64,000 nt of DNA from a virus, in the IMG/VR virus record IMGVR_UViG_3300031997_000620, positions 19,234 through 83,233 of that record. One strand, written 5' to 3'. Under the pieces are notes generated by a model. That model made no database searches, had not been told where the DNA came from, and saw only the letters and a program-made list of their open reading frames with translations. Shown here piece after piece: positions 11,766-63,860 of the stretch; position 1 is the stretch's first letter, and each line of letters begins with the position of its first letter. A program made the translations under genes and the position numbers.

Positions 11766-11778
11766 GCAAGAGGGGGAA

Positions 11779-12216: not shown

Positions 12217-12413
12217 CCTACGAACAGCAGTATCACGCAGCACTCGCTCGCATCGCGGAGCTGGAGGCAGACCGCGATCGGCTGGACTGGCTCCTCGGGG
12301 GCGAGCACGGCTGCGACGAGGTGGACATTGTCCTCAAAGGTGACGACCACATCTGGCACCCCGTGACGACGCGGGAGCAGATCGACGCCGCCCGCGCGAA
12401 GGAGACGCCGTGA
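12213..12413 (+). CDS. Short paralogue of preceding protein
   Basis: The 66-residue product reads like the C-terminal half of the upstream protein: ARIAELEADRDRLDWLL, an insert with WHPV, then TREQIDAARAKETP. A 20-base stretch (12040-12059 and 12258-12277) is identical in both genes, so the duplication is recent. It starts at a TTG (12213) overlapping the upstream TGA; an ATG is lacking nearby. The closing codons carry GAAGGAGA, the ribosome site for the next gene. No known domain. Confidence 0.6.
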   Translation: MTYEQQYHAALARIAELEADRDRLDWLLGGEHGCDEVDIVLKGDDHIWHPVTTREQIDAARAKETP

Positions 12414-12679: not shown

Positions 12680-12707
12680 CCGCCACCGAGGAGCTGGGAG
12701 GGGACGA

Positions 12708-12857
12708 ATGCTGAGTGACACCGAACTCGCCGCGCTAGCGCGAGCGATCACCGAACTTGCCGCGCACCCGCCCGACGAGTGGCGCGACCTGGAGAGCGAC
12801 GTGGTGAAACTGATTCGCGGTGCCCTCGCCGCAGCCCGCGCGAAGGAAGGGTCATGA
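12708..12857 (+). CDS. Small protein ending in shared ARAKE tail
   Basis: ATG 12708 follows GGGAGGGGAC and yields 49 residues: MLSDTELAALARAITELAAH, then a helix ending in GALAAARAKEGS. The final ARAKE segment repeats the ends of the genes at 11779 and 12213, and its codons (GCGAAGGAAGG) give the ribosome site for thyX, with an ATGA overlap. This is the last gene of the GC-rich block. No function recognised. Confidence 0.5.
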   Translation: MLSDTELAALARAITELAAHPPDEWRDLESDVVKLIRGALAAARAKEGS

Positions 12858-13648: not shown

Positions 13649-13736
13649 GAACTTGTCTAATAAAAAATTTGGAAGACTATTAGCTGTCCAAATTTCTAAA
13701 AGGATAAAAAAGGGAGGAAATAGGCGTGGAGTTTGA
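13635..13736 (+). pseudogene. 33-residue basic peptide, possible HNH endonuclease remnant
   Basis: A short frame from ATG 13635 (inside the end of thyX) to TGA 13734-13736 reads MGKYKNLSNKKFGRLLAVQ, then a basic stretch. It resembles the N-terminus of many phage HNH/AP2 homing endonucleases, which begin with a DLTGQKFGRLTVI-like segment, but nothing follows. It may be what is left after loss of a mobile endonuclease, or a genuine small protein. It covers the gap between thyX and the next gene and contains the latter's AAGGGAGG site. Confidence 0.35.
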
Positions 13737-14157
13737 AGACAGGGAAGGGTATGACGAACTGCTGGCGGTGCTCAAAGAAGCCTATGAGCAGGCTTCGATT
13801 GGTAAGGGCCGCGAGCGCCATGCTCATGGCAATAAGCCTTTTACAGATCAGCAAATCCTAACAGGGCAACGAAAGTATGGCATGGGGTTTGCTTTAGGGC
13901 AAGCCGATAAGAAGATGGAAGAAGCCTTTCATATGCCGAATTGGACTTCAGCAAGGAGAGATCTTCTTGGGGCTCTGGTCTATGTCTCTGCCGCCATCCT
14001 ATATGGGGACGAAGCTAATCAAAAGGATGCCGATCTATTTGAAGATGCGGTAAGTAGTCTGTGTGAAGAAGAAGAAAATTTAGTAGATGATGACTATGAT
14101 GATCCTTTCGAAGATGACTTCGAAAACGTTAAACCCCCTATTACCGAGGAGAAGTAA
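13726..14157 (+). CDS. Conserved phage-type protein of unknown function
   Basis: GTG 13726 is preceded by AAGGGAGG. The 143-residue product carries IGKGRERHAHGNKPFTDQQI and GFALGQADKKMEEA, followed by LLGALVYVSAAILYG. I have a general memory of similar hypothetical phage proteins with the KGRERHA and GQAxKK segments, but know no function. The C-terminal 35 residues are strongly acidic (VDDDYDDPFEDDFE). A nucleotide-metabolism role would fit thyX upstream; this is a guess. Confidence 0.6.
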   Translation: MEFEDREGYDELLAVLKEAYEQASIGKGRERHAHGNKPFTDQQILTGQRKYGMGFALGQADKKMEEAFHMPNWTSARRDLLGALVYVSAAILYGDEANQKDADLFEDAVSSLCEEEENLVDDDYDDPFEDDFENVKPPITEEK

Positions 14158-14160
14158 GGA

Positions 14161-17100: not shown

Positions 17101-17325
17101 AAGACTCCTACAGGAGCAGAGTTTGAGAAGGATATGGTCAACTGTGTAGTCGCTGACGGATTTACGGCTACTGATTTGGCTAACGCTCTAGATAAGCTAG
17201 GATCTGATGAAGAAACTTTCAAGAGGATTGTCAAAGAAGGATTCATTACCGCAGAAACCCTTTCCGACCCCGGCCCCTATCGTGAGACTTGGGCGAGAGT
17301 AATTGAGGATATTTATGGAAACTAG
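14161..17325 (+). CDS. Three-domain glycosyltransferase (GT2 + two GT4-like)
   Basis: The 1054-residue protein joins three transferase units. Residues about 75-330 are a GT-A/GT2 domain: VDIVLPVYGG, LIIVDDCSPD, FQPKNKGFAASVNKG and LNSDV (nucleotide-sugar/metal site). Residues about 355-710 look like a GT-B/GT4 domain: IAFLVFSTAYCGGMAF to TYGMPSLEGMASGAVPV (the E of an ExxxxxxG-type site). Residues about 715-1050 are a second GT4-like domain: IFVVTPHLRKHGGPTT and SHSEGLGRMSLEAMSA. Such proteins build successive glycosidic bonds. The acceptor could be a virion protein, phage DNA or host surface glycan; the sequence does not tell. It is the first gene of a glycosyltransferase cluster. Confidence 0.82.
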   Translation: MFRTEPDGSVLWLPTTVEEAVQFKIDLLEEGTEHTSSSSLSEQVTTQLNSFANKILEGNSNLTRTNDLYLSTIKKMFGGALYPVDIVLPVYGGLHILKPSLQAIKDRTDYPYRLIIVDDCSPDHKTKKFLTEWQANNPAHTVIFQPKNKGFAASVNKGIRTGQGGYICVLNSDVLVTPNWLTKLVFALEASPTHAIVNPVTNNTAIIDIAMHPGLSYLDMNRGLEAVSSHRYPEIMPTGFCFMFKRELITKIGYFDEAYGSYGEESDFWMRTLSYADPNGVFPRYKAVLADDTYLYHERGSSFSALGTEQHMGIRRGGSERFNRIWPQFKSWRKHNKVENDIQYLKDELPKRVTTKESPYNIAFLVFSTAYCGGMAFIADIVNQLQEEGVNAKVVQINRDPAHVAPPTMGELRSGVISFESPKDAVDHFSSSVFDSGVIVAATNEMQQLAEQIGVNNPKLLNVLFSQSFDPALVPNDQLSTTMKEQYHKAPYIISNAKWLDETIKSITNRSTFGYVNPGVNSELFYPRGRDRGDDRPTVAFFLNSREEYRGFNRGLEAAFALHNISLQCNIDIRIVGIGVDAVQGAPFITCVGGMSQARIATFLSTEVDVICDPQTIHTYGMPSLEGMASGAVPVCWDNVGIHEFATNGIDSIILPKEATPGMVAQEIFNLLTNTSTLDTMKAEAVLVSKKHNRKVAVTQFIQNLEENFRLRHAKRKIFVVTPHLRKHGGPTTILHTAEALASLGHDVTLGCIYADINPEIIKETNIPISIKWQDPGKYDVIITNSDNPHNEHFSFAKWADKKVLLKLSHNPRFQKLEDDALKLEWDDICTSTNWLVNACAKPQVESGWTHPPREAHRVGWYHYGHKDFVCKYTDRKYFINGQMNILTLIHHHPTKGTPEALTALAAIKEKYGDKVNIFGVGEWPEFTKQCPPWMQYFLNIDRKSLAQIYRQMDFFLSASHSEGLGRMSLEAMSASCLVIKTPTGAEFEKDMVNCVVADGFTATDLANALDKLGSDEETFKRIVKEGFITAETLSDPGPYRETWARVIEDIYGN

Positions 17326-18091
17326 CAAACGAGGAGTTGCAATCTGCCACTATAATAGGGTCTTAACTCTAGAAAAGCTGATTACTAGGGTTATCGATAC
17401 AGTCCCTCAGGACTGTAGGGTTGTGGTTTGTGATGACGGATCTGATGCTGTTTTTAGCCCTCAAGAAGTTCATGACATTAGCGCATCAGACATCTGTAGA
17501 AAGATTGGGGTTCCCCTAATTCAAGGACGCAATCTTGGGGTATCCGCAAACAAGAACCGTGCCCTCTGGGCTCTTCAGGACTGTCACTTCATGTGTATTC
17601 TAGAGGATGATCTATTCCCGAATGCCCCGGGATGGATGGAAGACTACGAAAGGGCCTCGTCCCTTTCAGGGGTTCATCATTTCTGCCGAGTGCAGGATAA
17701 GGAAGTTGAAGAAACGATTTCCAGTTTCTCCAACTTTATGATCTCTGAAGGTCTTACTCCGATTTTTGGCCCTTCTCCCCGTGGGGATCTGACGTTCCTT
17801 ACGAGTCGAGTCCTTAAGGAAGTAGGAGGATTCAACCCTGCCTTTATCGGGGCAGGATATGCCCACGGGGAATGGACTGCTAGAGTCGTAGCGGCGGGGC
17901 TAATCCCTCACCCTCTTAAGTATGTGGATATTCAAGAGGCACGGAACAAGTTTGAACAAATCGGAGATACTGAGGGGGGCCGCTGGCTACAACCCAACAG
18001 CTTAATTCAGACTCAGATCAAGAATAACCGCAAGCTTCTAAAACAGCTCCAACGGACAGGGTATATCTATCATCCTCTGGTGCTCTCATGA
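17315..18091 (+). CDS. GT2 family glycosyltransferase
   Basis: The 258-residue protein starts at ATG 17315 after TTGAGGA, inside the previous gene's end. The GT-A fold is shown by GVAICHYNR, RVVVCDDGSD, QGRNLGVSANKNRAL and ILEDDLF (the Asp cluster for metal and sugar nucleotide). A later GAGYAHGEWTARV segment fits the acceptor side of the fold. Sugar and acceptor are unknown. It overlaps the deformylase gene by four bases, so the two are probably co-translated. Confidence 0.8.
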   Translation: METSKRGVAICHYNRVLTLEKLITRVIDTVPQDCRVVVCDDGSDAVFSPQEVHDISASDICRKIGVPLIQGRNLGVSANKNRALWALQDCHFMCILEDDLFPNAPGWMEDYERASSLSGVHHFCRVQDKEVEETISSFSNFMISEGLTPIFGPSPRGDLTFLTSRVLKEVGGFNPAFIGAGYAHGEWTARVVAAGLIPHPLKYVDIQEARNKFEQIGDTEGGRWLQPNSLIQTQIKNNRKLLKQLQRTGYIYHPLVLS

Positions 18092-18633
18092 TGAGAGAAA
18101 TAGTGACATACCCGAATGCAGATATCCGTGAACTCTCGGCTACCGTTAGAAGGATCAATGGCCCTGAGACGATGCAGCTTATTGAGGATATGAAAGAGAC
18201 TATGCTGGCATACAAGGGAGTAGGGCTCGCTGCACCTCAAGTGGGGGTTCGCAAGAGAATTATCATAGCCGAGTTTGATGGGATCTTAGCCTTAATCAAT
18301 CCAAAGTATAAGGTCTTAGGGGAGGAGACTTTCAAGTCCTTGGAAGGGTGCTTATCAGTTCCCGGCCCGACAGCAGTAATCACCCGATTTAACTCCATTG
18401 AAGTTACCGGAAAGGAGCCTCATTTTTGGAACAACGAAGTTGTCACCAGTGATTTTAAGTGGATCTTTACAGGAGAAGAAGCAGCTATCATTCAGCATGA
18501 AATAGACCACCTAGAAGGGTGCCTATTCTTTGACCACCTGAAGCCGATGGCAAAGAATATGTACATTAGAAAGATGAACAAACAGATCAAAAGGGGGCAG
18601 GCATGGCGGTATCAAGTCGCAACATCGTTGTAA
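18088..18633 (+). CDS. def: Peptide deformylase
   Basis: All three deformylase motifs are present: GVGLAAPQVG (44-53), EGCLSVPG with metal-ligand Cys88, and QHEIDHLEG with His137, Glu138 and His141. The length (181) is near that of bacterial enzymes. The enzyme removes N-formyl groups from new proteins. Phage copies are known, for example in cyanophages and vibriophages. Its position between glycosyltransferase genes, with overlaps on both sides (4 and 31 bases), is unusual. ATGs at 18088 and 18091 are both possible starts. Confidence 0.9.
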   Translation: MMREIVTYPNADIRELSATVRRINGPETMQLIEDMKETMLAYKGVGLAAPQVGVRKRIIIAEFDGILALINPKYKVLGEETFKSLEGCLSVPGPTAVITRFNSIEVTGKEPHFWNNEVVTSDFKWIFTGEEAAIIQHEIDHLEGCLFFDHLKPMAKNMYIRKMNKQIKRGQAWRYQVATSL

Positions 18634-19523
18634 ACCTACTCAAGTTTAACTATAAGGATCAAGTAGTTCAAAGCTATGCCCAGTCTGTAGTGCGGGAAAT
18701 CAAAGCTCTCGGGCACGACGTTACTGAGATTGGCCCCGGAACAGAGTGGCAGCATGACTTTGACTTTACTAGCTTCGATTTAGTAGTAGATCTTGATTGC
18801 GGGCGGAACCCCAACACAGGAGATCTAAATTTTCGATTCCACAATAACCCTAGCCCGATTCCTTCTGTAGTTTGGTTCATTGATTCACATGGAAACCCCA
18901 CACTACACCACAGACTGGCTAGGAATTATGACCATGTGTTCTTTGCCGTTTGGGCCAAGAGAGACTTGTTTGCCTCTCACAAATCGGCTCATTGGTGTCC
19001 TAACGCTACGGACTCCGAGTGGTTTAACAGCTCATTCCAGTCCACCCATCCTTCTTATGACTTTGGGTTCTTTGGATCTAAAATGGGTCTAATTCGGGCA
19101 GATCCTATGAAGGACATCTGTGCCCGCCATGAGTGGCCTTGTGATGTTCGCCAAATTTCTACAGTCAACAAGCATCGATGGCCCTATACGGCCCAGGCTA
19201 TGGGCAATTGCAAGGCGCTGTTCAACCACGGCCAGAAACATGATGGCCCTAATCTTAGGGTTGTTGAGTCGATGGCAATGGGCCTACCGTTGATTAGCGA
19301 TCAAGATCCGCGTTCAGGGATGGACGAGTTGTTTACTCCTTGGGAGCACTACTACCCTTATGACTTTAGCACCTACGAAGGTTTAGAGCATATCATGAAA
19401 CTGGTTAAGATAGACTATCAAAAAGCTCTTAATGTTGGGGAGACAGCAATGCAGGAAGTTCATGCAAAGCACCTGATTAAACATCGGGTGCAACAGATGT
19501 TGGAGGTGGCTTTTGCAAAGTAA
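18603..19523 (+). CDS. GT4-like glycosyltransferase
   Basis: The product is 306 residues. The C-terminal half has the GT-B donor-site pattern FNHGQKHDGPNLRVVESMAMGLPLI followed by SGMDELF, as in CgeB/GT4-type proteins; the N-terminal half contains VVNLLKFNYKDQ and a Rossmann-like FDLVVDLDCG. Start ATG 18603 lies within the deformylase gene (31-base overlap). It is part of the same coupled run and probably adds one sugar in the same glycan. Confidence 0.7.
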   Translation: MAVSSRNIVVNLLKFNYKDQVVQSYAQSVVREIKALGHDVTEIGPGTEWQHDFDFTSFDLVVDLDCGRNPNTGDLNFRFHNNPSPIPSVVWFIDSHGNPTLHHRLARNYDHVFFAVWAKRDLFASHKSAHWCPNATDSEWFNSSFQSTHPSYDFGFFGSKMGLIRADPMKDICARHEWPCDVRQISTVNKHRWPYTAQAMGNCKALFNHGQKHDGPNLRVVESMAMGLPLISDQDPRSGMDELFTPWEHYYPYDFSTYEGLEHIMKLVKIDYQKALNVGETAMQEVHAKHLIKHRVQQMLEVAFAK

Positions 19524-41455: not shown

Positions 41456-41469
41456 TCTATTAAATTATC
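41456..41469 (-). promoter_or_regulatory. Late promoter motif copy overlapping stop codon
   Basis: Minus strand GATAATTTAATAGA lies 20 bases ahead of the lipoprotein gene. It overlaps the last codons and the stop of the GSCFA gene (ending SKII-stop), so the boundary of the sugar island is marked by a promoter copy. One base differs from the consensus (A for final G). Confidence 0.52.
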
Positions 41470-42422
41470 TTACTTTCTATGTAAGACTGTGAAAATTTGT
41501 CTAAAACTACTTGAACCACTTCTTGACGAATATGCCGATTGTCTTCTTCATATGGAGAGCCGTTCTGCCATTCTTTGATTATTTCATAAGCAGGCCAATA
41601 ATAAACATCTGAATAGTTTATTCGCATAAGTTCATCGACTGCCACTCGCAAGATTGCTTTTGATACTGTATTTGCCGTTACACATGATACAGGTCTAAAC
41701 GTTGCAACTAAAGGTACTGGGGAAAGGGTAAAAATAATCTTTGCAGTAGTGTTATTCGCTTTAATAGTTTGTACGACATGTTGTAAATTTTCTAAGTTCT
41801 CACTAACCGTAGAGACTCGAAACTCGTGAATCTCGGGATTAAACTGCTCCTTGGGGATACCCCTCCAAAATACTTCCTTAGTTACCTTATTAGACCAAAC
41901 CTCAGAAAGTCCGAGAGTGAGAATAAAAACATCTGTCTTATCAAAAATTGCTCTAGTTTCTATTCGGTTGTCTTCTGTAGGTTCAACCCTTTCTGTTTTA
42001 GAATACCACAAAGATTCCTCAAAATTGCAATTGTTCCACGCCCAATCAAATTGCTGCCTAATCGCAAATGTAGTATTGATTCCTTCTCCAAAATGAATAA
42101 TGGGTAATGCTTTTGACTTTACAACAAATCGTTGTGTCTTATCCCTCAAATACTTACGGATATGCTGAGCAAAACAACTTCCAAAAGCCGTAACATAAGA
42201 CGAGGCTGCAATTATCGGTGAAACCGGAGTCCACCCTTTAAGGATATATTTATTTATTGCATCCTCTTCTTTTAAGTTTACGAGGCTAGGAATAAAATTA
42301 CAACTATCACCTCTAAACCAATCCATTCCAAGAATTCTAGACTTGTCCTCTCCTAGTTTATAACTATAAGCAGCGTTGTTATCTAACATGTCTAATTCTT
42401 TTTTACTAAAAGACTTATCCAT
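41460..42422 (-). CDS. GSCFA-domain protein
   Basis: The 320-residue product (ATG 42422, GGGAGG seven bases ahead) has the family-defining AFGSCFAQHI, a LTLGLSEVW stretch and TLSPVPLV, all in the usual order of GSCFA proteins, which resemble SGNH-type hydrolases. Members are linked to polysaccharide work in bacteria, but the reaction is not established. It is the last gene of the sugar island and follows the deacetylase gene by two bases. Confidence 0.78.
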   Translation of the reverse strand: MDKSFSKKELDMLDNNAAYSYKLGEDKSRILGMDWFRGDSCNFIPSLVNLKEEDAINKYILKGWTPVSPIIAASSYVTAFGSCFAQHIRKYLRDKTQRFVVKSKALPIIHFGEGINTTFAIRQQFDWAWNNCNFEESLWYSKTERVEPTEDNRIETRAIFDKTDVFILTLGLSEVWSNKVTKEVFWRGIPKEQFNPEIHEFRVSTVSENLENLQHVVQTIKANNTTAKIIFTLSPVPLVATFRPVSCVTANTVSKAILRVAVDELMRINYSDVYYWPAYEIIKEWQNGSPYEEDNRHIRQEVVQVVLDKFSQSYIESKII

Positions 42423-42424
42423 TA

Positions 42425-43012
42425 TTATGCCTCCCAAAGATCTTTTCTATTTTTAACTGCCTCTACAACGCTCCCATATTCAAGAACAGTTGCTATTCTC
42501 AATAATTTTAAACCTCTTTGCCACCAGTGATCCATGACGGTTCGGTCCATAGGCAATGTCTTATATCTTCGTGCTTCTGCTAACCACTGACCCGGAGGGA
42601 TGGTTTGTCCGACTCCTTCTACAGTTAGACCAAAACTATATGCTACTTTAGTGAGTTTTTCGCTTTCGGCCCCCCACGGAGTCGCCCAAACTTTAGGAGC
42701 ATAGCCAAGTGTTTTTTCAAACCAGTCTACGGACTTAAAAAGATGTTGAGCAATTTCAGTTTCATTTAGTTTGCCATAATCTATATGAGTCCATCCGTGA
42801 AGTTCAGGAAACATCTTACCTTCTTTAGTTTTTTCAATTATAAGATCTACGGAGGCAGGATAGTCCTGAATATCTTTTACAAGTATAGTTGGAACATGAT
42901 GAATCAAAGGACTTTGTTCGAGCCATCTTACTACTTGGGCAAATTTTTCATCTGGATTATGTCCTTTTGAATGAACAAGAACATCATCAATTCTAATTCT
43001 AAGTTGATTCAT
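42425..43012 (-). CDS. Polysaccharide-deacetylase-like protein
   Basis: The 195-residue product starts with MNQLRIRIDDVLVH, an R-x-DD motif like the metal-binding start of NodB/CE4 enzymes, and has ELHGWTHIDY with an HGxxH motif about 60 residues later. A WATPWGAESEK segment fits the later strand of the fold. Such enzymes remove N-acetyl groups from sugars. Shorter than usual CE4 members but with key residues present. Last-but-one gene of the sugar island. Confidence 0.65.
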   Translation of the reverse strand: MNQLRIRIDDVLVHSKGHNPDEKFAQVVRWLEQSPLIHHVPTILVKDIQDYPASVDLIIEKTKEGKMFPELHGWTHIDYGKLNETEIAQHLFKSVDWFEKTLGYAPKVWATPWGAESEKLTKVAYSFGLTVEGVGQTIPPGQWLAEARRYKTLPMDRTVMDHWWQRGLKLLRIATVLEYGSVVEAVKNRKDLWEA

Positions 43013-43599
43013 GCCTCGCCCTTTTTAGCTAAAACTTTAATTGTACCGTTTCCTAATTCTATTTTTATAGCTGTATAATTTGTTCTAGTTAGATAAAATC
43101 TCATAATTTTAGGAGTAAAGCAAATTAATCTCTTTTTATTTTTTAGTGGACCCAATTCAGTATCTTGATAAAATTCATCATCAGCATTTCTACAAATTAT
43201 AGCTAATGTTCCTTTAGGTTTTAATATCCTATTCCATTCTCGAAGAGCAATTATCGGAGAAGGAAGACCATCTAGATAGTTAGATACAATATAATCACAC
43301 GTATTATTATCTAAATGAGGTAAGTTTATGGCACTCTCACATACTAAACCTTCAAATGTTCCTAAAACAAATGCTGCATCAACACCATAAGCTCCTCCGA
43401 TCGGAAAGTCTCCACAACAAATATTAAGACCATTACCTTCTCTAGTAAATTGTTCCATCCAATTCCAATCATCAAAAGAAGGGCTTGTAGGAAGATTTTC
43501 AAATTCCTCTTTTAATCTTCGTGCTCTTTTTAAGAATTTATATGTTATTGTATCTATAACAGAGATATAACTAAATTCTTTTTCTAATTTGTCATTCAT
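43009..43599 (-). CDS. SAM-dependent methyltransferase (class I)
   Basis: The 196-residue product has a Rossmann-type GNGLNICCGDFPI motif I, an acidic AYGVDA strand 2, and a CDYIVSNYLDGLPSPIIALR middle, followed by WNRILKPKGTLAIICR. This is the usual pattern of class I methyltransferases that act on sugars or small molecules. It overlaps the next gene by four bases and the previous by eight. The methylated site is unknown. Confidence 0.7.
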   Translation of the reverse strand: MNDKLEKEFSYISVIDTITYKFLKRARRLKEEFENLPTSPSFDDWNWMEQFTREGNGLNICCGDFPIGGAYGVDAAFVLGTFEGLVCESAINLPHLDNNTCDYIVSNYLDGLPSPIIALREWNRILKPKGTLAIICRNADDEFYQDTELGPLKNKKRLICFTPKIMRFYLTRTNYTAIKIELGNGTIKVLAKKGEA

Positions 43600-44257
43600 A
43601 TGTTTTCTCCCTTTTCCTTATAATAACCAGCCCAGGATGAAATAAGATTGAAAAAATCTCTTTTTGTCTTTGGCTAGCATCCGTTCTACTGTTTACGTTA
43701 CACCACCACATGCCCTTTCTATTGTTAGGGTTTGGATCATGTCTACCGTAAAAGTTTAAATCATCAATAATGTCTTTAGCATATACGATAAAATTATCAG
43801 TAATTTTTGTTCCCGCCCATTTTTCATGATAACTACAATTTACATCTTCAACAATATAATACCCATTTGGCTTAACATGCGGCCATAATGTCTCAAACGT
43901 AAGAATTTGATGAGGCCCTTCATGGGAGCCGTCATCAATTACTAGATCAAAAGGGCCATCTAACTTAGCGCCATCTTTCAACTGCTGCTTATTACTTTGG
44001 TCTACTTGTCGAGGAAACACTCTTTCTATATTTCTAATAGTATTTAAATATTTATTCCTAATATCCCACCCATAAATGTTTGCCTTAGGAAAGTATTCTC
44101 GCCAAACTCGTATAGACGGGCCTTCACACACCCCAACTTCTAATAAATTAATTTCATTTAATCTAAAAGGTTCAAAAAGTACAGAATAAATTTCAACATA
44201 ATTGTGTTCTATTGAACTTTTATCACACTTATATTTTATAGCAAGTTCATCTAACAT
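43592..44257 (-). CDS. SAM-dependent methyltransferase, macrocin/cephalosporin-type
   Basis: The 221-residue product carries LLEVGVCEGPSIRVW (motif I), ANIYGWDIR, FDLVIDDGSHEG, and LWPHVKPNGYYIVEDV. The DDGSH motif and spacing are typical of a group of sugar or macrolide O-methyltransferases and cephalosporin hydroxylase-like enzymes. AT-rich. It lies directly next to the epimerase gene (one base between). Confidence 0.72.
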   Translation of the reverse strand: MLDELAIKYKCDKSSIEHNYVEIYSVLFEPFRLNEINLLEVGVCEGPSIRVWREYFPKANIYGWDIRNKYLNTIRNIERVFPRQVDQSNKQQLKDGAKLDGPFDLVIDDGSHEGPHQILTFETLWPHVKPNGYYIVEDVNCSYHEKWAGTKITDNFIVYAKDIIDDLNFYGRHDPNPNNRKGMWWCNVNSRTDASQRQKEIFSILFHPGLVIIRKREKTYE

Positions 44258-45295
44258 TTAAAATACCTCCTCATTATCTGCAACCCAATTTTTAACAATA
44301 CTAAGCCCCTCGTAGATACTAACTTTAGGAGCCCAACCTAAAGCCTTAAGCGGTCTCGTATCGGAGGTGTATGCCTTCTGGTCACATGGCCTCCAATCAT
44401 GATAGCTAACTTCCGGCTTTCTCCCATACATATCAGATAAGATATCAAGGCTTTGGTTAATGGACAGAGTATTCTCAGGCCCTCCTCCGAGATTGAAGAC
44501 ACCATGTTCAACATTAGAATTAAGGTATGTCTCATATGCTCTTACCGCGTCTCCTACATAGAGCATGTCTCGGACCTGCTTGCCATCTCCAAAAACCTTA
44601 AGAGGAAGATTTTTCTGCATTGCAATAACAAACCATGTCGCCCAGCCTTGCTCTTCAAACCCGAACTGGTTAGGCCCATAGATACAGCTCATACGGAATA
44701 CCCCACTCTTTACACCGTAGGTGTGGAAATATTCCTGGCAAAGAAGATCTGCGGAATACTTGCTCCAGCCATATGGGGTGCGTGAAGCAGGAAGAAGCTG
44801 TGCTGTGGGAGGGAAACCGTTGGCGTCCCACCCATAATTCCTGAACTTCCATCGATCGATTGAAGGGTCGAAAACAAATTCAGAATCCTGAATAGGATAA
44901 ACCTTGTTCGTAGAAGCGAAGACTACTTTAGCTCCTGTTCTTCGGGCAAGTTCTAGGACATTGAATGTTCCCATTAGGTTTACTTCAAAGTCGCGGCGCG
45001 GATTTGCAATAGAGGTAGGCACTCCACACTGTCCTGCCATGTGAATGATAGCATCATAGTGATTTAAATATGCAAAAGACTCTTCCTTACTTACATCGTC
45101 TAGATAGACTTTAATGCCCATGTCTGTTAAGATCTTATGGTTAAAGGTCCGGCGCAGCAAGTTAGACGTAGTATGTCCCAGCAGAGCAGATCTCTCTAGA
45201 TTGTCCATGACTTCAACATCACACCCGAGATTGTAAAAGTGTTTTGCCGCGTTGAACCCAATTAACCCACAACCTCCCGTAACAAGAACTTTCAT
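44258..45295 (-). CDS. NAD-dependent sugar epimerase, CDP-paratose 2-epimerase-like
   Basis: The 345-residue short-chain dehydrogenase has the NAD motif VLVTGGCGLIGFN, catalytic YGWSK (Tyr/Lys), and the stretch RMSCIYGPNQFGFEEQGW, closely like the CDP-tyvelose/CDP-paratose epimerase family. It would make a 3,6-dideoxyhexose or other epimerised nucleotide sugar. The gene looks less AT-rich by eye than those on both sides, so it may have another origin. In the island it would supply the sugar donor. Confidence 0.78.
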   Translation of the reverse strand: MKVLVTGGCGLIGFNAAKHFYNLGCDVEVMDNLERSALLGHTTSNLLRRTFNHKILTDMGIKVYLDDVSKEESFAYLNHYDAIIHMAGQCGVPTSIANPRRDFEVNLMGTFNVLELARRTGAKVVFASTNKVYPIQDSEFVFDPSIDRWKFRNYGWDANGFPPTAQLLPASRTPYGWSKYSADLLCQEYFHTYGVKSGVFRMSCIYGPNQFGFEEQGWATWFVIAMQKNLPLKVFGDGKQVRDMLYVGDAVRAYETYLNSNVEHGVFNLGGGPENTLSINQSLDILSDMYGRKPEVSYHDWRPCDQKAYTSDTRPLKALGWAPKVSIYEGLSIVKNWVADNEEVF

Positions 45296-45296
45296 G

Positions 45297-46151
45297 TTAT
45301 ACTCCCTTATCTATATCTTTGAACTCTACATATTGTTTAATATCTTCATAAGTAGTTCTGTCTAATTCCCACAATCTATCCGAACGAGGTGAATCTAAAT
45401 AAGTATTATTTCTAGCTAAATTTGTATTTAGCCCGATTAAGTCTAACCACCATCCTCTATTTGGAGTGTGTATCACATTTATTAATTCAGTGTTATTTTC
45501 AGTTAATCCTAGTTTAGCATGGCATCTATGGAAGGCTGTTTTACAACCTAGACTTGTAGCATTAAAAGGTTCTGAGTATATTACATGACAAGATTTCCAA
45601 TCACTGTACTTAATGTACTCATGTTTAGTTTTCATGTAGCAATATCCATGTCTAAATGAAATCCATTCTTCTTTATTTCTAAATTGATGATATGTTTCTT
45701 CAATAAAATCTCTAGATAAAAGGTCGTCTGTGTCCAACCTAGTTGTAATTAGCCATTTACAATTAGGATAATTCTTTTTTACATATTCAAACACATGCAG
45801 TCTTAAAGGCCCTGCCATTGGGCACTCTGGGCCACCGTCTCCCCAAGGAAAATCCACATGCTGTAATTTGACAAAATCATTTTCCTTTTCTGATGTTTTA
45901 AGATCTTCAATAACTGAACCTATAGCTGGAAATGATGGGTCTATGTATAATAGATAATCAAAATTTTGATTAGTCTGTGCTTGCAAAGAAGGAAGATTAT
46001 AATCTAAATAATAGTGTCTTCTTTCTTCTAAGAACTTAGCCCAATCTTTATCTTTCCAGTTCTCATATAGGTTCACTCTAAAGATATGATTTTTTAAAGC
46101 AAATCTGCTTAAAATTAAATAGACAATTTCAGAGTCTTTATGCAAGATCAA
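45297..46151 (-). CDS. Rhamnosyltransferase-like glycosyltransferase
   Basis: The 284-residue product resembles the putative rhamnosyltransferase family: FALKNHIFRVNLYENW near the start, YLLYIDPSFPAIG and WLITTRLDTDDLLSRDF, which contains the D-x-D-type metal site. A histidine/aromatic-rich segment follows. It overlaps the next (upstream) gene by 14 bases; that gene encodes a related protein, so the two look like a tandem duplication. Sugar not proved. Confidence 0.7.
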   Translation of the reverse strand: MILHKDSEIVYLILSRFALKNHIFRVNLYENWKDKDWAKFLEERRHYYLDYNLPSLQAQTNQNFDYLLYIDPSFPAIGSVIEDLKTSEKENDFVKLQHVDFPWGDGGPECPMAGPLRLHVFEYVKKNYPNCKWLITTRLDTDDLLSRDFIEETYHQFRNKEEWISFRHGYCYMKTKHEYIKYSDWKSCHVIYSEPFNATSLGCKTAFHRCHAKLGLTENNTELINVIHTPNRGWWLDLIGLNTNLARNNTYLDSPRSDRLWELDRTTYEDIKQYVEFKDIDKGV

Positions 46152-46932
46152 ACTCCTCTTTAATCTTTTCCAAGGAAGTTTTTAATTGGTCGAGTAACTG
46201 AAATCTCTTTGTTCGATAAGCCCATTCTTTTCGTTTTTTTATGTTAGTATTTTCTGCTACTCTATCGGCCCACCATCTTTCACTTGTATCATCTATAATA
46301 GTAAACCGATTGTCTCCCTTGCCCTGATAGCCGAGGACATTGTGCATCCGATGGTACACCGTCTTTAATTGAGGCCCGAACGGCTCACAGTATACTAAAT
46401 GAGCATTATTTATATCATCATCAACAACAAAACTATCTTTACTGAAGTAGTACCCGTTCTTTAATATGATCCAGCCTTCTTTGCCGGCCTTGTTAATGCT
46501 CCAAATCTTCTCCACGTATTTCCTAGCGACAATATCGTCGCCATCTAGTCGGGCCGTTACCAACCATCTACATTTTGGGTACTTTTTTTCAATATATTGA
46601 TGGGTAAAATTAGCAACATTAACATGAAAATTCGCTTGACTAAAAGGAACACCGTCTCCCCATTCAAAGTTTACATATTGCAAATCGAAGCTTCCTGTCT
46701 TTGCTTCTTTTTCTACTTCTTCTTTAACTAAGTTATAATGAGGAAACGTCGGGTCTATTAGAACTACTAACTTAAAATCTTTTGAAGATTGTCCTTTTAT
46801 AGACAATAAGCAATCTTTCTTAAAGAAGTTCCACTTTTCGACTACCCACCCCTTTGTTATTGGAGCATAATGAGTATGCGTCCTATTGTGCAGGAATAAT
46901 CTCATGATTATAAGGAATACATTTTCATCCAT
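46138..46932 (-). CDS. Rhamnosyltransferase-like glycosyltransferase (paralogue)
   Basis: The 264-residue product has the same plan as the gene at 45297: VFLIIMRLFLHNRT at the start, LVVLIDPTFPHYNL, WLVTARLDGDDIVARKYVEK with the DGDD site, and a related C-terminal part. Members of the family act in polysaccharide synthesis. The AT-rich composition matches the rest of the island. Confidence 0.7.
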   Translation of the reverse strand: MDENVFLIIMRLFLHNRTHTHYAPITKGWVVEKWNFFKKDCLLSIKGQSSKDFKLVVLIDPTFPHYNLVKEEVEKEAKTGSFDLQYVNFEWGDGVPFSQANFHVNVANFTHQYIEKKYPKCRWLVTARLDGDDIVARKYVEKIWSINKAGKEGWIILKNGYYFSKDSFVVDDDINNAHLVYCEPFGPQLKTVYHRMHNVLGYQGKGDNRFTIIDDTSERWWADRVAENTNIKKRKEWAYRTKRFQLLDQLKTSLEKIKEEFDLA

Positions 46933-46957
46933 TATTTTTTACCTCTTCTTATATGGA

Positions 46958-47458
46958 TCACACAACTCCCCATTGTTTGTTAGGATTCCAAGCATCCCAA
47001 ACTATTAAAGGTCTTTTAAGTTTAGCAGAAACTCTTAGAGCTAATTTATAATCTAATCCTCTATTTAAATCATCTACTATTATTGGAACATCTGTATCAA
47101 AAAGACTTAGATATTTATAAAATCCAGATCTTCCTATTCTATCTGGAGGCCCATCAACTATGATACACTTATATCCTTTAGGAATACTAGATATAGCATC
47201 TTTGTCATACCACGAACATTGAGGCTCAAATCCTTTAACTGGTTTATGCTCTGTTATAGGAGCATATACATAGTTAATCCCGTCATACTTATTTAACCAG
47301 TCTAAAGAATGCTCAACAGAGTACATAGTGTACCCGTTATCATGTAAAATTTTTGAACCCTCTCCACTTCCTAGCTCTAAAATTGTACTTCCGGATGGAA
47401 TATTTTCACATATCCATAATACCATCGTATCGCTTATTCTTACAGGATTCGTTTCCAT
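46958..47458 (-). CDS. Methyltransferase-like protein
   Basis: The 166-residue product carries STILELGSGEGSKILHDNG (motif I of SAM-binding folds), YKCIIVDGPPDRIG (strand 4), and VPIIVDDLNRG. The DGPPDRIG stretch is typical of a group of small methyltransferase-like proteins in surface-polysaccharide clusters. It overlaps the next (GT2) gene by 19 bases. Catalysis is not shown. Confidence 0.6.
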   Translation of the reverse strand: METNPVRISDTMVLWICENIPSGSTILELGSGEGSKILHDNGYTMYSVEHSLDWLNKYDGINYVYAPITEHKPVKGFEPQCSWYDKDAISSIPKGYKCIIVDGPPDRIGRSGFYKYLSLFDTDVPIIVDDLNRGLDYKLALRVSAKLKRPLIVWDAWNPNKQWGVV

Positions 47459-48177
47459 TCAAACCTCAAAATAGGGCCATTTTTATACGTTCCATTGTTA
47501 ACTAATTTACCTTTATTCATCATTCGTTTATAGTTATCAATTGTTGTATCTTTAGGGTTTTTAGGAACAACCTCACCCTGCTGTGTGCGACAAACAAACC
47601 TTTTATACCAACGGATATATCCGTGGTCCATTTCTTTTCTTTTCAGGCCCATTTTAGGAAAAACAAAATTATGGATAAAGATATCTTCCCAACCCCATGC
47701 TCCAGAAAAATCCTCGTCATATAAACCAGACTCTAACATTGCGTCCTTGTGGATGAAAAAACTATTACAATGAGGGTGCCTCATTCTTTCAGGTTTATGC
47801 TGACTAGGAAACCAAAGTCTAGGCCAATATGTCGTATCTTTACTCGGGTTTTCTTTAAAGAACCCATCAAAAGTAATATCTAAAACGCTCATATCAAAAT
47901 CTAAAGGAAATAACCATTCTCCAGTTGCCTGAGTAATACCTAAATTTCTAGCTCCTGTAACATTCCATTTAATATCTTCCAATACTTGGAAGACTTTAAT
48001 GTCTAATCCTTTAGCTTCTTTAAATAGGGATAAGTTAATCTTATCAGGAGAACCATCATCAACTATGATTATTTCTGTATTTCTCTTATTTTCTGGGCTC
48101 CAAGAATTCCAGTTGTTGATGTGCTCCGGTATAGCTTCATTATGATTATAAAAAGGATGGACGACACTTATCTTCAT
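47440..48177 (-). CDS. GT2 glycosyltransferase
   Basis: The 245-residue product has ISVVHPFYNHNEAIP, TEIIIVDDGSPDK, VTGARNLGITQATGEW and LFPLDFDMSV (D-x-D). A later segment GAWGWEDIFIHNFV carries the ED-type catalytic-loop motif. This is a GT-A inverting fold typical of surface glycan synthesis. It overlaps the next gene by one base. Confidence 0.78.
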   Translation of the reverse strand: MKISVVHPFYNHNEAIPEHINNWNSWSPENKRNTEIIIVDDGSPDKINLSLFKEAKGLDIKVFQVLEDIKWNVTGARNLGITQATGEWLFPLDFDMSVLDITFDGFFKENPSKDTTYWPRLWFPSQHKPERMRHPHCNSFFIHKDAMLESGLYDEDFSGAWGWEDIFIHNFVFPKMGLKRKEMDHGYIRWYKRFVCRTQQGEVVPKNPKDTTIDNYKRMMNKGKLVNNGTYKNGPILRFEWKRIL

Positions 48178-48557
48178 TATTTGTTCCTTGTTAGTTCATA
48201 TTCAAATGCTGAAGATAGTTGACGACGAACCGCTTCAGGTGTATTATCACATATTTCTTCGATTAATTCAAGTGCAGTTTTAGGGGGAGCACTAAATGTT
48301 CGGCATGCTGATAAGGTCTCATAGCTGTTTGTTGAAATAATTTCAGTTAGTGTTTTATCAAATTCTCTTTTGAGTAAATCTCTATATTCACAACAATGAC
48401 GTGAATTTTTATCCCATAATGCTATGAGTGCAGAGTTAGGGCTGTCTTTTACGCTCTCTTCTCTTTTCTTATTTTCAAACCAAGAAAGTTTGTTTATCTC
48501 CACAATAAGGCGGTCTATAATATCAGCTAAAGTATTATAATTAGGAATCCTTTTCAT
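48177..48557 (-). CDS. Hypothetical helical protein of sugar island
   Basis: The 126-residue product is helical (LADIIDRLIVEINKLSWF, later LLKREFDKTLTEIIS) with three cysteines. No known domain. It lies between a GT2 gene and a methyltransferase gene, overlapping both by one to four bases, so it is part of the island's operon. Possibly an accessory or scaffold protein. Confidence 0.5.
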   Translation of the reverse strand: MKRIPNYNTLADIIDRLIVEINKLSWFENKKREESVKDSPNSALIALWDKNSRHCCEYRDLLKREFDKTLTEIISTNSYETLSACRTFSAPPKTALELIEEICDNTPEAVRRQLSSAFEYELTRNK

Positions 48558-49072
48558 ACTTTCCTCCCACGAATCAGCAAAACTGGTTCTTGTTTGTAAT
48601 GCGAACTTACCATATCTTCTTTGTTTATAATACGAGTAAGATCATTAAACCCAGCACTTGCTAAATATTTAATTAAAGTTATGTGGTCAAAACCAAAATG
48701 ATGCGCCATCCCTCTTCGTTCAGTTTTACCATAAATAGAAGTTCTCCATTTATGTATTAAATCTTGATTCTCTGTATGATAAGCTTCATGCAAAAGAGTT
48801 ATAATCTCTTCAAAATCTGGAACTTCAATATAAACCGGACATTCGAGTTTAATGACTCTAACAATCTCTTTTAACATCACAGGAAACTTGTCTCTTGTTA
48901 AATGCTCCAATACGTGAATAGAATGAATTTCATCAAATGAGCTATCCTTAAAAGGAAGGTAGAACCCTGATCCTATGACATTAACCCCTTTACTTTTAAA
49001 GAGATCTAAATTAACCCATTCTTTTTCTCTGTATCGACCGTTTGCACAACTACTTCCAATATTAAGTTTCAT
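48554..49072 (-). CDS. SAM-dependent methyltransferase
   Basis: The 172-residue product has MKLNIGSSCANGRY, WVNLDLF, SSFDEIHSIHVLEHLTRD and EIVRVIKLECPVYIEVPDF, in the usual order of the family of polysaccharide-linked SAM methyltransferases. It is the first gene of the island. A weak late-promoter-like element lies 49-62 bases ahead. Confidence 0.75.
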   Translation of the reverse strand: MKLNIGSSCANGRYREKEWVNLDLFKSKGVNVIGSGFYLPFKDSSFDEIHSIHVLEHLTRDKFPVMLKEIVRVIKLECPVYIEVPDFEEIITLLHEAYHTENQDLIHKWRTSIYGKTERRGMAHHFGFDHITLIKYLASAGFNDLTRIINKEDMVSSHYKQEPVLLIRGRKV

Positions 49073-57357: not shown

Positions 57358-57622
57358 TACATCCCTCTGAAAGCTGCTTTTGTAGGAGAAGGTCCGCTAC
57401 TTTCTTAGCTTCGTCTGCTCTCCATGTTGCCCAATCTACCTTAACAAGTAATTGAGATATAGCAATCTTCTCTGTTTCAAGAGACGCAATCTCGCTTGCT
57501 TGCACGTTCACAGTGTTTTCCAGTTGATTAACGTGCTCAGATAAACGAGTATATCCCACAATAGCACTTACAGCTAAAGCCCCTATAGGAAGGATTTGAG
57601 ACGCCCACGAAGGTATTGACAT
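57344..57622 (-). CDS. Membrane-anchored coiled-coil protein
   Basis: The 92-residue product has one hydrophobic helix (ILPIGALAVSAIVGY, about 10-25) followed by a coiled coil (LENTVNVQASEIASLETEKI) and one Cys near the end. This plan suits an inner-membrane spanin or another lysis accessory, but also small tail chaperones. It lies one base from the portal gene. The function is unproved. Confidence 0.5.
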   Translation of the reverse strand: MSIPSWASQILPIGALAVSAIVGYTRLSEHVNQLENTVNVQASEIASLETEKIAISQLLVKVDWATWRADEAKKVADLLLQKQLSEGCNGKR

Positions 57623-59877
57623 TACTTACCTTTTCCTGGCTGCTGCGGAGGAGGCTGTCCCGGCACCTGTCCGCCTTGGGCCTGTACCTCTTGAGCCTGC
57701 ATTTGCATCTGCTGCATCTGTCTAAACTCAATCATCATCTTGTACTTGTCCATCAATGCGTGGATCATCTGCTGTGAGTCGGGGCGCATATCCCACCAAC
57801 TGTCCTTCTTGGTTTCCTGTGTCAACAGTTCGAAGGCAACAAACGGATCATCCTCAGGCTGCGGGATTACGCGAGTAAAGTCGCCTGCCTTGATCCAAGT
57901 AATCATTCGGCGAACTCTTTCCACATCAAGACCCTGAGGTTGTAGCGAGTATTCAATGCCCAAACGGTCTAGAACTGCCTGTTGCAGCCCAAACGGTAGT
58001 TGCATTAGATTGCCTGCATACTGCAAGAATTCAATCGTCTTTGCTTCCCGAGCTTCCTTAGATAGAAGCGCCATTGAAGCCGTATCGATTCGAACTCCTA
58101 CGTTATCGCTAAGATCCTCACCAGAGAACTGGTGGATCGTCAAAGAACTCATCTTCTCACGAGCCAAAATCTTGATCCGCTCTAGATAGCGCGGGTCAAT
58201 ACGAACATTTCGGATAACTTCTTGAAGAAGTGCAGAGCCTTCTCTTTCCAGAGATTCATCCCACGCCTGTAGACACGCGGAGCGTGATGATAGTGCTTGC
58301 TTACGCAACATGTCCAAAGCCGCTGCCGAGTTAACACCTTGAGGGCGTTCGCCTCGTAGAACCTGCTCCGTACCAGCGATGAACTCCATTTCCTGAAGCT
58401 GCTGCTCTCTCTCGCGAAGCGCAGCTTCGGGATACGCCGGGGGGTGAATAACCTCCGGAGCCATGCCAGCCGTCTGTCTCGGGTCATATTCCCAGATTAG
58501 TCCCGGCTTCCCAGACCACAAATCCTTCTGCGGATGTGAGCCTTTAGGTGCAATCCAGGCGCTCATCGGAATAGTACGCCGCCACATAATCATAGTCGTA
58601 TCGATGGCATTTACGCGCTTTAGCTTAGGAAGGAGTTTAGAAACGAGGCTCCTGCCCCAGATAGAACCGGGCATCGGTTCCCAGCGGTACCTAACGTAAG
58701 GGTGCCAACGGTTGGGCCAACGCGGATCGTATGCGCGTGCGCCTCTGTCCATCGGTGAATCATAAAGAAGCTGGTTTCCTGCTGTAATGACTGTCCTACC
58801 CTTCGGCCAACGGTCACTCGGCTTGCGATCAAAAATTCGGACTACACAGTATCCGTCCCACTGTTCCGGAGAGCCAATATACAAAGACTGACCAGGGCCT
58901 TCAACCAAGGTAGTCAGGCGCTCCCACCACCAAAGCGGAAGACGTGTTACGTTTTCTGAGAATACCTTATCCAGATTTTCAAGGAACCACCCATTACTCT
59001 TCTTGAAAACGTTCTTTCGACGCTTGGCAGCAATCTCATACTTCGATTTCAAGCTATCAATCGGAGTGTAATATTCCCGCATGACCCAATCGATATCTTC
59101 CCAGTAGTGAGTATTGGGAACGTGAATCTCAAAGGGCGAGACGATTCTAGCGGAGACATCCCCATATTCAACCTGATCCTGCATCTTAGGCTCGCCTTTA
59201 GAATCCATCGACTGAACCTGACGAGCGACGGGCACTTTGATCGGAGCCCCTGAAACCGGATCTCTTACAAAGCTGTAAGGAGAAGTTTCTGTCTGCGGAA
59301 CGCTCATGTGCCGAGGAACTGAATCATCCCAAGCGATCTCCTTGAACGCGGTTCCACAATAGAGCATAAGGCGACAGATCTCTCTATTCTTCTCCGGCAT
59401 ATCCAAAGCTTCCCATAGATACTCTAGAGTTAGCTCAGACAGGTCGGCTGCCTTCTGATCGTTAAGACTATCGCTCTTTGCGGACACCCTAGGCATGGGT
59501 TTGTTCTCCGTAAAGAGAGCAATGTTGGTTTCAATGTATCTGCCTAGAAGATCGTTTACGGGACGCGGAACGTTATCAAGGGTATCTTGAACAACGGAAG
59601 CCTCAGACGAGTTACTATTGTAGTTGATGCGGCTAGAAAGAATATCGTCAATATATTGACGCCCAGCCCCAAACAAGATATTTTCAATCCACTGGATTGT
59701 GGCCGCCCACCGAGACGATGAACGGTTTGTGTCTACGAAATCCCCATATTCATTGATTGCCGTGGCAACCCGAGGATCGCCATGCGGGATTAAATCGATT
59801 CTACCTAGGTGCCCTTTGCGCCAAGTATTCGGCGACTTACCGTCATCGGAGGGCGTCTGCGGGGGTTGCTTTGCCAT
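57622..59877 (-). CDS. Portal protein
   Basis: The 751-residue protein has portal features: an N-terminal helical head (WIENILFGAGRQYIDDIL), the stem-wing stretch ARIVSPFEIHVPNTHYWEDI, a core with RYRWEPMPGSIWGRSLVSKL and LLPKLKRVNAIDT, and a long helical C-terminal barrel (LREREQQLQEMEFIAGTEQV), then Gln-rich end (MIEFRQMQQMQMQAQEVQ). Size and helical layout match P22-type portals (about 700 residues). Portals form the dodecameric ring of DNA entry. Upstream are two helical proteins that may be partners; terminase is not in the window. Confidence 0.78.
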   Translation of the reverse strand: MAKQPPQTPSDDGKSPNTWRKGHLGRIDLIPHGDPRVATAINEYGDFVDTNRSSSRWAATIQWIENILFGAGRQYIDDILSSRINYNSNSSEASVVQDTLDNVPRPVNDLLGRYIETNIALFTENKPMPRVSAKSDSLNDQKAADLSELTLEYLWEALDMPEKNREICRLMLYCGTAFKEIAWDDSVPRHMSVPQTETSPYSFVRDPVSGAPIKVPVARQVQSMDSKGEPKMQDQVEYGDVSARIVSPFEIHVPNTHYWEDIDWVMREYYTPIDSLKSKYEIAAKRRKNVFKKSNGWFLENLDKVFSENVTRLPLWWWERLTTLVEGPGQSLYIGSPEQWDGYCVVRIFDRKPSDRWPKGRTVITAGNQLLYDSPMDRGARAYDPRWPNRWHPYVRYRWEPMPGSIWGRSLVSKLLPKLKRVNAIDTTMIMWRRTIPMSAWIAPKGSHPQKDLWSGKPGLIWEYDPRQTAGMAPEVIHPPAYPEAALREREQQLQEMEFIAGTEQVLRGERPQGVNSAAALDMLRKQALSSRSACLQAWDESLEREGSALLQEVIRNVRIDPRYLERIKILAREKMSSLTIHQFSGEDLSDNVGVRIDTASMALLSKEAREAKTIEFLQYAGNLMQLPFGLQQAVLDRLGIEYSLQPQGLDVERVRRMITWIKAGDFTRVIPQPEDDPFVAFELLTQETKKDSWWDMRPDSQQMIHALMDKYKMMIEFRQMQQMQMQAQEVQAQGGQVPGQPPPQQPGKGK

Positions 59878-61746: not shown

Positions 61747-63039
61747 TTATGTTTTTTCTAAAGTTAAAGTACAAGTTACTAACGTGAAGGTATCGGATGA
61801 AAAAAGATTAAAAGTAATAACAGAATTAGCAGGAACAGCTTTACTCCATCCAACTAAAGCCTGAGAGCTATATTTGATACCACTAGTAATAGTTGGAGGA
61901 TCAGATGCCACAATCTTATCCGCTACGGTAGGCGGAAAATTATTATATGAATCTACCCAGATATCCACAAAGCAGTTTCCCGGTCCTCCTTCAGTAAGAA
62001 TTTGTACACCAGTAATAGTCATTGCTTCAGGGACATAAGCATGTATTAATCCAGCAGCAGTAGCAGACACAGGACTTCCTACCCAAGTAGCACCTTTTTG
62101 TATCTTAGGATTAGATATAATAGCTTCTTTAAAGTTTAATACAGGATTACCACTAGAATCCGGAGTTAGATAAAAAGAAGATCTATTAAAGTGAATGTTA
62201 TCATCAGTAAATAGTTTAACCCCATCTGTAAATACGATAGCTGCTGAAGACCCAGGAGGCCCAGGAGGCCCTGTAGCACCAGTAGCACCTTTAAAGTTTA
62301 CTATAGGATTACCACTTGACTTAGCCGGAGTTAAATAGAAAGAATCTCTATTAAAATGAAGGCTATCATCAGTAAATAGTTTAACCCCATCTGTAAAAGT
62401 AACGCTGCTGATACCTGTGCTGCTAGTATTTAATGAGTTAACTACAGGCTGACCAGAAGATCCTCTACTTAGATAAAAGCCTGCATCACTAAAGCTAAGA
62501 CGAGTAATATTTAGGTATTCGTTAACTGCATCATCTGTAGCTAAAGGAGAGCCAGTCCCACTAGATGCTGAACTTAACAAATTAACAATAGGATAACCAT
62601 GCGAATCAGACGTAATATAAAAGTTAGTCCGATCGAAAATTAAGGTATCTGATTGGATATCTGGAGTATTATTAGTGGTTGTTACTCTTATACTTGATGG
62701 AATATAGAAATTAGTGATAGAAAGATCTTCACCCATAGCCAGCGCAGTTTGCCAGAAAGGCTCCTGTTCTGTGCCTGTATTAGCTTGAAGTTTCCATTGA
62801 TTATCTGTATCTGAAATTGTTCTAAAGCGGTTATGCTTAGTTCTATCTCCGTACTCCCAACCGCGAAGTCTACTCTCTTTGGGTCCATCCGGATCTTTAT
62901 CATAGGTAGCTGAGTAACGAACAATGGGGTGAAGAGCCTCTGTGTCTTGACGGATTTCTCCTAACTGGGCAGAAAACCGTTTACCAAAAAGAGGCCACGG
63001 CGCGTAAAATCCATAATGTGAATCGCTGTCATGCGCCAT
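61747..63039 (-). CDS. Tail fibre protein with repeat modules and collagen-like stretch
   Basis: The 430-residue product has about four related modules of 30-40 residues: variants of LxFxRxxFYLTxxSSGxPxVN, two of them (residues about 200-310) very similar: FTDGVKLFTDDSLHFNR and FTDGVKLFTDDNIHFNR. A short collagen-like run GATGATGPPGPPG joins the last two. The C-terminus is a beta-sandwich-like part. Such modules form elongated fibre shafts. ATG 63039 overlaps the upstream stop as TAATG. Confidence 0.7.
   Translation of the reverse strand: MAHDSDSHYGFYAPWPLFGKRFSAQLGEIRQDTEALHPIVRYSATYDKDPDGPKESRLRGWEYGDRTKHNRFRTISDTDNQWKLQANTGTEQEPFWQTALAMGEDLSITNFYIPSSIRVTTTNNTPDIQSDTLIFDRTNFYITSDSHGYPIVNLLSSASSGTGSPLATDDAVNEYLNITRLSFSDAGFYLSRGSSGQPVVNSLNTSSTGISSVTFTDGVKLFTDDSLHFNRDSFYLTPAKSSGNPIVNFKGATGATGPPGPPGSSAAIVFTDGVKLFTDDNIHFNRSSFYLTPDSSGNPVLNFKEAIISNPKIQKGATWVGSPVSATAAGLIHAYVPEAMTITGVQILTEGGPGNCFVDIWVDSYNNFPPTVADKIVASDPPTITSGIKYSSQALVGWSKAVPANSVITFNLFSSDTFTLVTCTLTLEKT
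62129..62397 (-). repeat. Direct repeat inside fibre gene
   Basis: Two copies of about 105 bases at 62129-62232 and 62291-62397 encode the FTDGVKLFTDD fibre modules; they share long identical runs (for example AGTAAATAGTTTAACCCCAT on the plus strand). Recent duplication or recombination between modules is likely. Confidence 0.6.
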
Positions 63040-63539
63040 TATGCTTGCTCACCACCAGGGTACCAACCCCCTGACGTTACATAAAACCCATCAATCCACC
63101 CTGCGACTGCTGTAGGAAGACCAAGTATCCATCCTCCAACTGACGCATAGAACCCATCAAGCCAGCCTTGTGAGAGAGGGGGATAAAACTCTCCAACCCA
63201 GTTACCCGGAGCAGGGTAGAAGCCGTAATCGCGAAGCCACCCTCCCAAGACAGCATAAAACCCATCAAGCCAACCACCTGTAACCGCATAAAATCCACTA
63301 ATCCAACTACCAGAGTCAGCATAAAAGCTGTGATCTTGTACCCAATCTGTATTGAAGTTGACGCTTTGAATCTGCCAGTGTATTTGACCATGCTGGATTA
63401 ATGTCGGTAAAAGAGAAAGATTCTCAGGATAAATATTCAGGTCTTCAACAGCAGCCGTCTCTTCATGAATAGTTACTTCTGATTTCGGAACCTGCCAGGC
63501 ATTGTGGTTCCGAGGAGTGCTTTCACTCGTCCACGACAG
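63039..63539 (-). CDS. Tryptophan-repeat protein with probable CUG start
   Basis: The frame is open from the TAA at 63543-63545 to the stop at 63039, but it has no ATG, GTG or TTG before a TTG at 63248. CTG 63537-63539 has AGGAAG seven bases ahead. The 166-residue product has an ordinary N-terminal half (ESTPRNHNAWQVPKSEV, LSLLPTLIQHGQIHWQI), then about eight units of the type W-[ILV]-x-G-F-Y-x-x-x-G-G (WISGFYAVTGG, WLDGFYAVLGG and so on). The stop overlaps the fibre gene's ATG as TAATG, as at other junctions here. Read-through of the upstream TAA is the main alternative. Likely fibre-associated. Confidence 0.6.
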   Translation of the reverse strand: MSWTSESTPRNHNAWQVPKSEVTIHEETAAVEDLNIYPENLSLLPTLIQHGQIHWQIQSVNFNTDWVQDHSFYADSGSWISGFYAVTGGWLDGFYAVLGGWLRDYGFYPAPGNWVGEFYPPLSQGWLDGFYASVGGWILGLPTAVAGWIDGFYVTSGGWYPGGEQA

Positions 63540-63542
63540 TTT

Positions 63543-63860
63543 TTAACTTCCTGCGTGACTATGAAAAACAGTGCATGTTGCTCCCACAGGAGTTGTTACT
63601 TGAAGCCCTGCATCTGCAATCCAAATTTGGGGCATAAAAAACGAATTTCTTGCTGGTACAGCGATAGTAAACAAGACTGTAGAAGTACCTGCCTGTTCAA
63701 ACGTAAAAGTAATGTTTGTACCACCAGCGTTTTCACATAAAATTCCGTGAACAACGATGGCTCTTCCAACCGTAGTACCACCCACAGTCTCAGGTGCAAT
63801 TATTACGTCTGTTTGACCGGCTATTACCCGGGTTGTTCTAGAAGCGAGACCTATCTGCAT
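63543..63860 (-). CDS. Small beta-rich virion protein
   Basis: The 105-residue product starts MQIGLASRTTRVIAGQTDVI and is beta-rich with many Thr, Val and Gly; it ends FHSHAGS. No cysteine-rich or enzymatic motif. It is in the same frame as the tryptophan-repeat region and separated from it by a single TAA. Probably a fibre or capsid accessory. Confidence 0.55.
   Translation of the reverse strand: MQIGLASRTTRVIAGQTDVIIAPETVGGTTVGRAIVVHGILCENAGGTNITFTFEQAGTSTVLFTIAVPARNSFFMPQIWIADAGLQVTTPVGATCTVFHSHAGS

Follow-up and report, generated by a model that had tools for sequence, protein, structure and literature searches.

Initiation at CUG is rare in bacteria: the codon yields about 0.9% of the output of AUG and accounts for 0.024% of annotated bacterial starts (PMC11497404), and annotated UUG starts change to CUG at 4e-4 against 3.2e-5 for AUG, a difference of about 12 times that was calculated from one and two events (PMC5622118). 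A proven case is the FIB rep gene of F-like plasmids, in which a CTG start together with a good ribosome-binding site sets a low expression that appears to be selected, and whose annotation often places the start at a canonical codon further downstream (PMC11983097). In Salmonella, Ribo-RET detected natural CUG initiation in 4 of 26 new proteoforms (PMC11005335), and for a phage, ORF10 of phiB124-14 has been annotated with a CTG start, reported as predicted, in a mainly ATG genome (PMC3338817). Few natural CUG starts have comparative support. The gene described here, from an uncultured tailed phage, probably starts translation at CUG; it is a genuine gene, probably of the late structural kind. 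It would resemble FIB rep in its CTG start and good ribosome-binding site; unlike that plasmid replication gene, which was proven by N-terminal sequencing and mutation, it is a phage late gene for which the evidence is comparative, and whereas the Salmonella CUG proteoforms are alternatives to annotated starts, the CTG would here be the sole start. On such comparative evidence, we file it as a putative member of the rare class of CUG-started genes.

The DNA analysed, called the window throughout, corresponds to the final 64 kb of a virus contig that measures 83,233 bases, and the features discussed are collected in Table 1. As the original prediction had it, sequence and coordinates agree on a frame of 166 codons that ends in a TAATG junction (63037-63041), in which its TAA overlaps the ATG of the fibre gene. 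Including the AAA triplet that precedes the CTG, the frame covers 63039-63542 (−), and the TAA of the upstream gene, which encodes a protein of 105 residues (p105), lies directly before it and in the same frame at 63543-63545. This TAA is followed by AAA CTG TCG TGG ACG, and the frame then stays open as far as the TAA at 63039-63041. The predicted absence of ATG, GTG and TTG from the first 97 codons is borne out as well, the earliest such codon being the TTG at 63246-63248, 97 codons past the CTG and amid the repeats. AGGA at the proper spacing has a background rate of 3%, and any 4-nt Shine-Dalgarno match a rate of 16%; the AGGAAG is hence supportive as ribosome-binding evidence for the CTG, but weak alone.

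Table 1. Features of the repeat-gene locus and the portal gene (window coordinates).
Feature	Position	Strand	Basis
Fibre gene, 430 aa	61747..63039	-	ORF; ATG overlaps repeat-gene stop
Fibre-adjacent repeat gene, 166 codons, CTG to TAA	63039..63539	-	open frame, coding score, homologs
C-terminal FY/W repeat region, about residues 71-166	63042..63329	-	repeat statistics
N-terminal conserved domain, about residues 1-70	63330..63539	-	two family alignments
Proposed start codon CTG	63537..63539	-	sole near-cognate codon between upstream TAA and conserved Trp
Shine-Dalgarno-like AGGAAG	63547..63552	-	sequence; 7 nt 5' of CTG, within p105 end
p105, 105 aa, small all-beta protein	63543..63860	-	family alignment, AlphaFold2 pLDDT 90.8
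Portal gene, query for relatives	57622..59877	-	PHROG 156

The repeat frame is a real gene, as its first 98 codons score like the other genes of the phage and homologs in uncultured, distantly related phages share its position. When the codon statistics are learned from the window's 35 longest ORFs, these 98 codons, counted from the AAA, reach 28.5 bits, compared with a median of 25.7 for true genes (5-95% range 14.6-37.6) and a 95th percentile of 3.0 for wrong frames. In a scan of both strands, the frame ranks first in the 64 kb for coding signal ahead of a canonical start, and the runner-up lies on the opposite strand, spanning one end of the portal gene and the final part of its neighbour's reading frame. 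Stretches of 98 codons lacking ATG, GTG and TTG make up about 3% of those within other genes, and a missing canonical start is therefore by itself mildly unusual; it becomes significant once coding signal and homology are added. The product would consist of two parts. The N-terminal domain carries the motifs W..., AWxVP and HEET..VEDLxIxPExLxLxPT...IQHG..xW, and the C-terminal part shows the tryptophan/FY repeat of about 11 residues that had been predicted: there are seven FY pairs, the tryptophans are mostly 11-13 residues apart, and five 'W..(.)FY' motifs face a mean of 0.07 after shuffling, with none of 20,000 shuffles reaching five. FY repeats are present also in relatives L009, L010, L013, L058 and L061.

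The relatives were brought in via the portal protein, to which theirs are mostly 50-64% identical (best 64%). Direct searches with sequences of the locus gave no matches: the repeat protein alone against IMG/VR in a single-protein search or by tblastn against a set of 50,697 phage records, p105 and the fibre protein against IMG/VR, the exact junction pattern with any first base against IMG/VR (0 matches, records very near the window having possibly been left out), and the domain alignment against GTDB genomes (0 matches), in which the portal matched one contig. In the late operons of the relatives, 13 other loci carry a homolog of the repeat gene near the fibre gene or immediately ahead of it, and jackknifed profile E-values are 8e-15 for the window copy, 1e-14 for L052, 4e-31 for L058 and 6e-25 for L044, with weaker values for L049 (4e-6), L056 (8e-6) and L060 (2e-5). 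The order p105-like gene (of the small jelly-roll kind), repeat gene, fibre gene recurs in L010, L013, L052, L056 and L060, and an extra gene is inserted into it in L009 and L058. Across the relatives, the repeat gene stands directly before the fibre gene, apart from one small ORF between the two in L056, L058 and L044. L014 and L044 have the domain by itself, as a protein of about 85 aa. Fused forms, always just 5' of the fibre gene, are found in L031 (2481-5690) and L032 (4746-5705), where the domain forms three tandem copies that conclude longer proteins, with cadherin-like repeats in L031 and a short N-terminal region in L032, and in the bacterial MAG contig L061 (3719-4321), where it follows a bacterial Ig domain. 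Neither the repeat protein nor its profile matched Pfam, PHROG or PDB entries, and the family is unnamed in Pfam and PHROGs and without a solved relative. A DUF6751 match of the L031 protein was discarded, as it fell under the curated cut-off and was without support across the family, and an AlphaFold2 model of the repeat protein (pLDDT 49), in which the repeat part is folded with low confidence, was too poor for a fold search.

The comparison of start sites carries the argument for the CUG. In the family, the domain opens with an aromatic residue, usually W and often followed by T or S, as seen at the N-termini MANNWT (L014), MPTDNWT (L044), MASDWS (L056), MSWT (L060), MPWT (L049) and MATTQWK (L052), and those of L009, L010, L013 and L058 read MxFYxxxW/Y. 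The SWT of the window aligns on this domain-initial W, which is encoded by the TGG at 63531-63533, and the CTG is the only plausible start because just AAA, CTG and TCG separate the upstream TAA from this conserved residue. The original prediction had favoured the CTG, and the relatives speak for it, since their homologous start place is occupied by TTG, GTG or ATG. The starts of the 11 unfused members are ATG in six, TTG in three (L049, L056, L060), GTG in one (L052) and CTG in the window; in the four TTG and GTG relatives, the named start is the earliest canonical codon of the open frame. An ATG at the same place, for which a comparison with related phages had been suggested, was found only in part, as six loci have one and the four others do not. 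The TTG and GTG relatives start at the homologous place and the six ATG relatives a few codons earlier in the alignment, and none of the relatives compared starts at the equivalent of 63248, the competing site named at the outset. The junction reads TAA-TA-TTG-TCA-TGG-ACG in L060 and TAA-AAA-CTG-TCG-TGG-ACG in the window, and a single T-to-C change in the TTG of L060 would yield the CTG of the window. The comparison shows that coding extends to within two codons of the CTG and that the start codons of relatives, at this place or close to it, are different ones; that the C is the phage's own base and that the CUG is used, we infer.

The alternative that deserves most attention, which we consider improbable but worth taking seriously, is that the C reflects either a minority variant or a single base wrongly sequenced or assembled, and that the true start is ATG, GTG or TTG. 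Such an error would be one changed base of the start codon and not a change that joins two frames. The C base is known from a single contig and lies 463 bases from its end, a region in which coverage tends to be lower; moreover, very few starts are CUG (PMC11497404), and the relatives carry ATG, TTG or GTG at the site. Against this, no other gene in the window has a comparable start-less coding stretch, and at 1e-5 to 1e-4 errors per base in an ordinary short-read consensus, which is our own estimate, and about 80 starts, a true CUG at the 0.024% rate is likelier than an error of exactly this type; the two would be comparable if errors were ten times as frequent close to the contig end. If the C were an error, the gene would still be real and newly recognised, with an ordinary start.

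It is very unlikely that the gene is a degenerate copy that lost its start and now gives either a short product from the TTG at 63248 or none. This TTG is the earliest canonical start, and gene callers limited to ATG, GTG and TTG could begin only there, but coding statistics are kept over the whole frame, the N-terminal domain retains its conserved positions, the frame closes right at the junction with the fibre gene, and a start at the TTG, which lies within the repeats, would cost the protein its conserved domain.

Phage structural proteins that are extended by read-through are known from the Qbeta A1 type, and UAA is generally the least leaky stop. The locus shares with the Qbeta A1 type two frames in register with one stop codon between them, and the original prediction had accordingly considered that read-through of the TAA could make a longer fusion. 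The fused p105-repeat product would measure about 273 residues and be made alongside normal p105. The domain is also fused to other N-terminal regions in L031, L032 and L061, so that a fused form is structurally tolerated. This proposal is not supported and is the one to which we give least credence: the TAA sits at the usual C-terminus of the p105 family (VFHSHAGS in the window, VFHTNIAGAS in L060, VFHSHGGA in L061, VFHDSPGN in L010), it is followed by A and is not a leaky UGA or UAG, in relatives the second frame carries a start codon of its own, the fusion partners elsewhere are not p105 and are joined in one uninterrupted frame, and the read-through is not a shared arrangement because p105 and repeat gene are in different frames in L052, L056 and L060 and separated by two TGA stops in L010. 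Read-through is not needed for the window gene, and frameshifting was set aside as the two frames are already in register. The p105 family itself occurs twice in some phages, in tandem in L058 (1013-1623) and L061 (3080-3710) and apart in L060 (7542-7856 and 20323-20613). Foldseek matches of p105 were uncharacterised phage and cyanophage virion proteins; its PDB matches were of low quality and of mixed kinds (best E 0.004, TM about 0.4), and no function is claimed from them.

With the CUG as the start, translation might proceed as follows. Ribosomes that finish p105 would halt 3 nt before the CTG with the AGGAAG nearby, and because of the closeness of both, re-initiation at this otherwise poor start is plausible. 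The initiator tRNA would read the CUG to give fMet-Ser-Trp-Thr, and the resulting protein of 166 residues would comprise the conserved N-terminal domain followed by the FY/W repeats; a gene for an initiator tRNA was not found in the contig. The weak start would hold down the copy number of the protein in relation to p105. Directly 3' of the CTG, at 63455-63560 (−), the RNA is predicted to form two stable hairpins, with −29 kcal/mol for the region and a z of −2.0, but 11 of 200 shuffles fold equally well, so that they could be due to chance; an Rfam search gave no match. The fibre gene downstream has a conserved N-terminal region of about 100 residues, followed by collagen-like and FYLTP repeats, and homologs of this N-terminal region are found downstream of the repeat-gene homologs in relatives. 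Pfam, PHROG and PDB gave no known virion protein that the repeat protein matches in sequence or fold. It is likely a component of the virion that associates with the fibre and is present in few copies.

Recurrent weak starts would fit a low-copy part that is coupled to an abundant neighbour. More tentatively, and with doubts prevailing, the weak starts may be a selected trait of the family that, coupled to the p105 stop, sets the stoichiometry of a low-copy fibre-associated protein. Non-ATG starts occur in 5 of the 11 unfused members, whereas the p105 family has 0 of 14 (Fisher p=0.009) and the genes of the window have 12 of 78 (p=0.03); compared with the fibre gene (2 of 14), the difference is not significant (p=0.18), all of these being small tallies of sequences related to one another. 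All four members that start at most 8 nt from the p105 stop have a non-ATG codon (window 3 nt, L060 2, L056 8, L052 1), and L010 and L013, at 15 nt, have an ATG. In the portal tree, in which the window's own placement is not fixed, non-ATG starts are found on several deep branches. The homologous set of ATG, GTG, TTG and putative CTG starts permits start strength to be tested as a tuner of the amounts of phage structural proteins. For annotation, gene finders that are limited to ATG, GTG and TTG would either overlook the gene or retain only its repeat tail, and an unnamed phage family next to the fibre gene can drop out of annotation in this way.

Several features elsewhere in the window and contig may be mentioned. 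A peptide deformylase, a member of an enzyme family that acts on N-terminal formyl-methionine, is encoded at window 18088-18633 (+) (Pfam E 2e-38), and three tRNA genes (two Arg-TCT and one Leu-CAA) lie near the other end of the contig, at 476-947 of L033 (contig 1-19300). A 1054-aa protein at window 14161-17325 (+) joins family 2 and group 1 glycosyltransferase domains. Finally, an island of sugar and surface-glycan genes is found among the structural genes at window 41460-49072 (−), with a polysaccharide deacetylase, an NAD-dependent epimerase and a member of the GSCFA family according to Pfam, and further genes that by eye resemble glycosyltransferases and methyltransferases.
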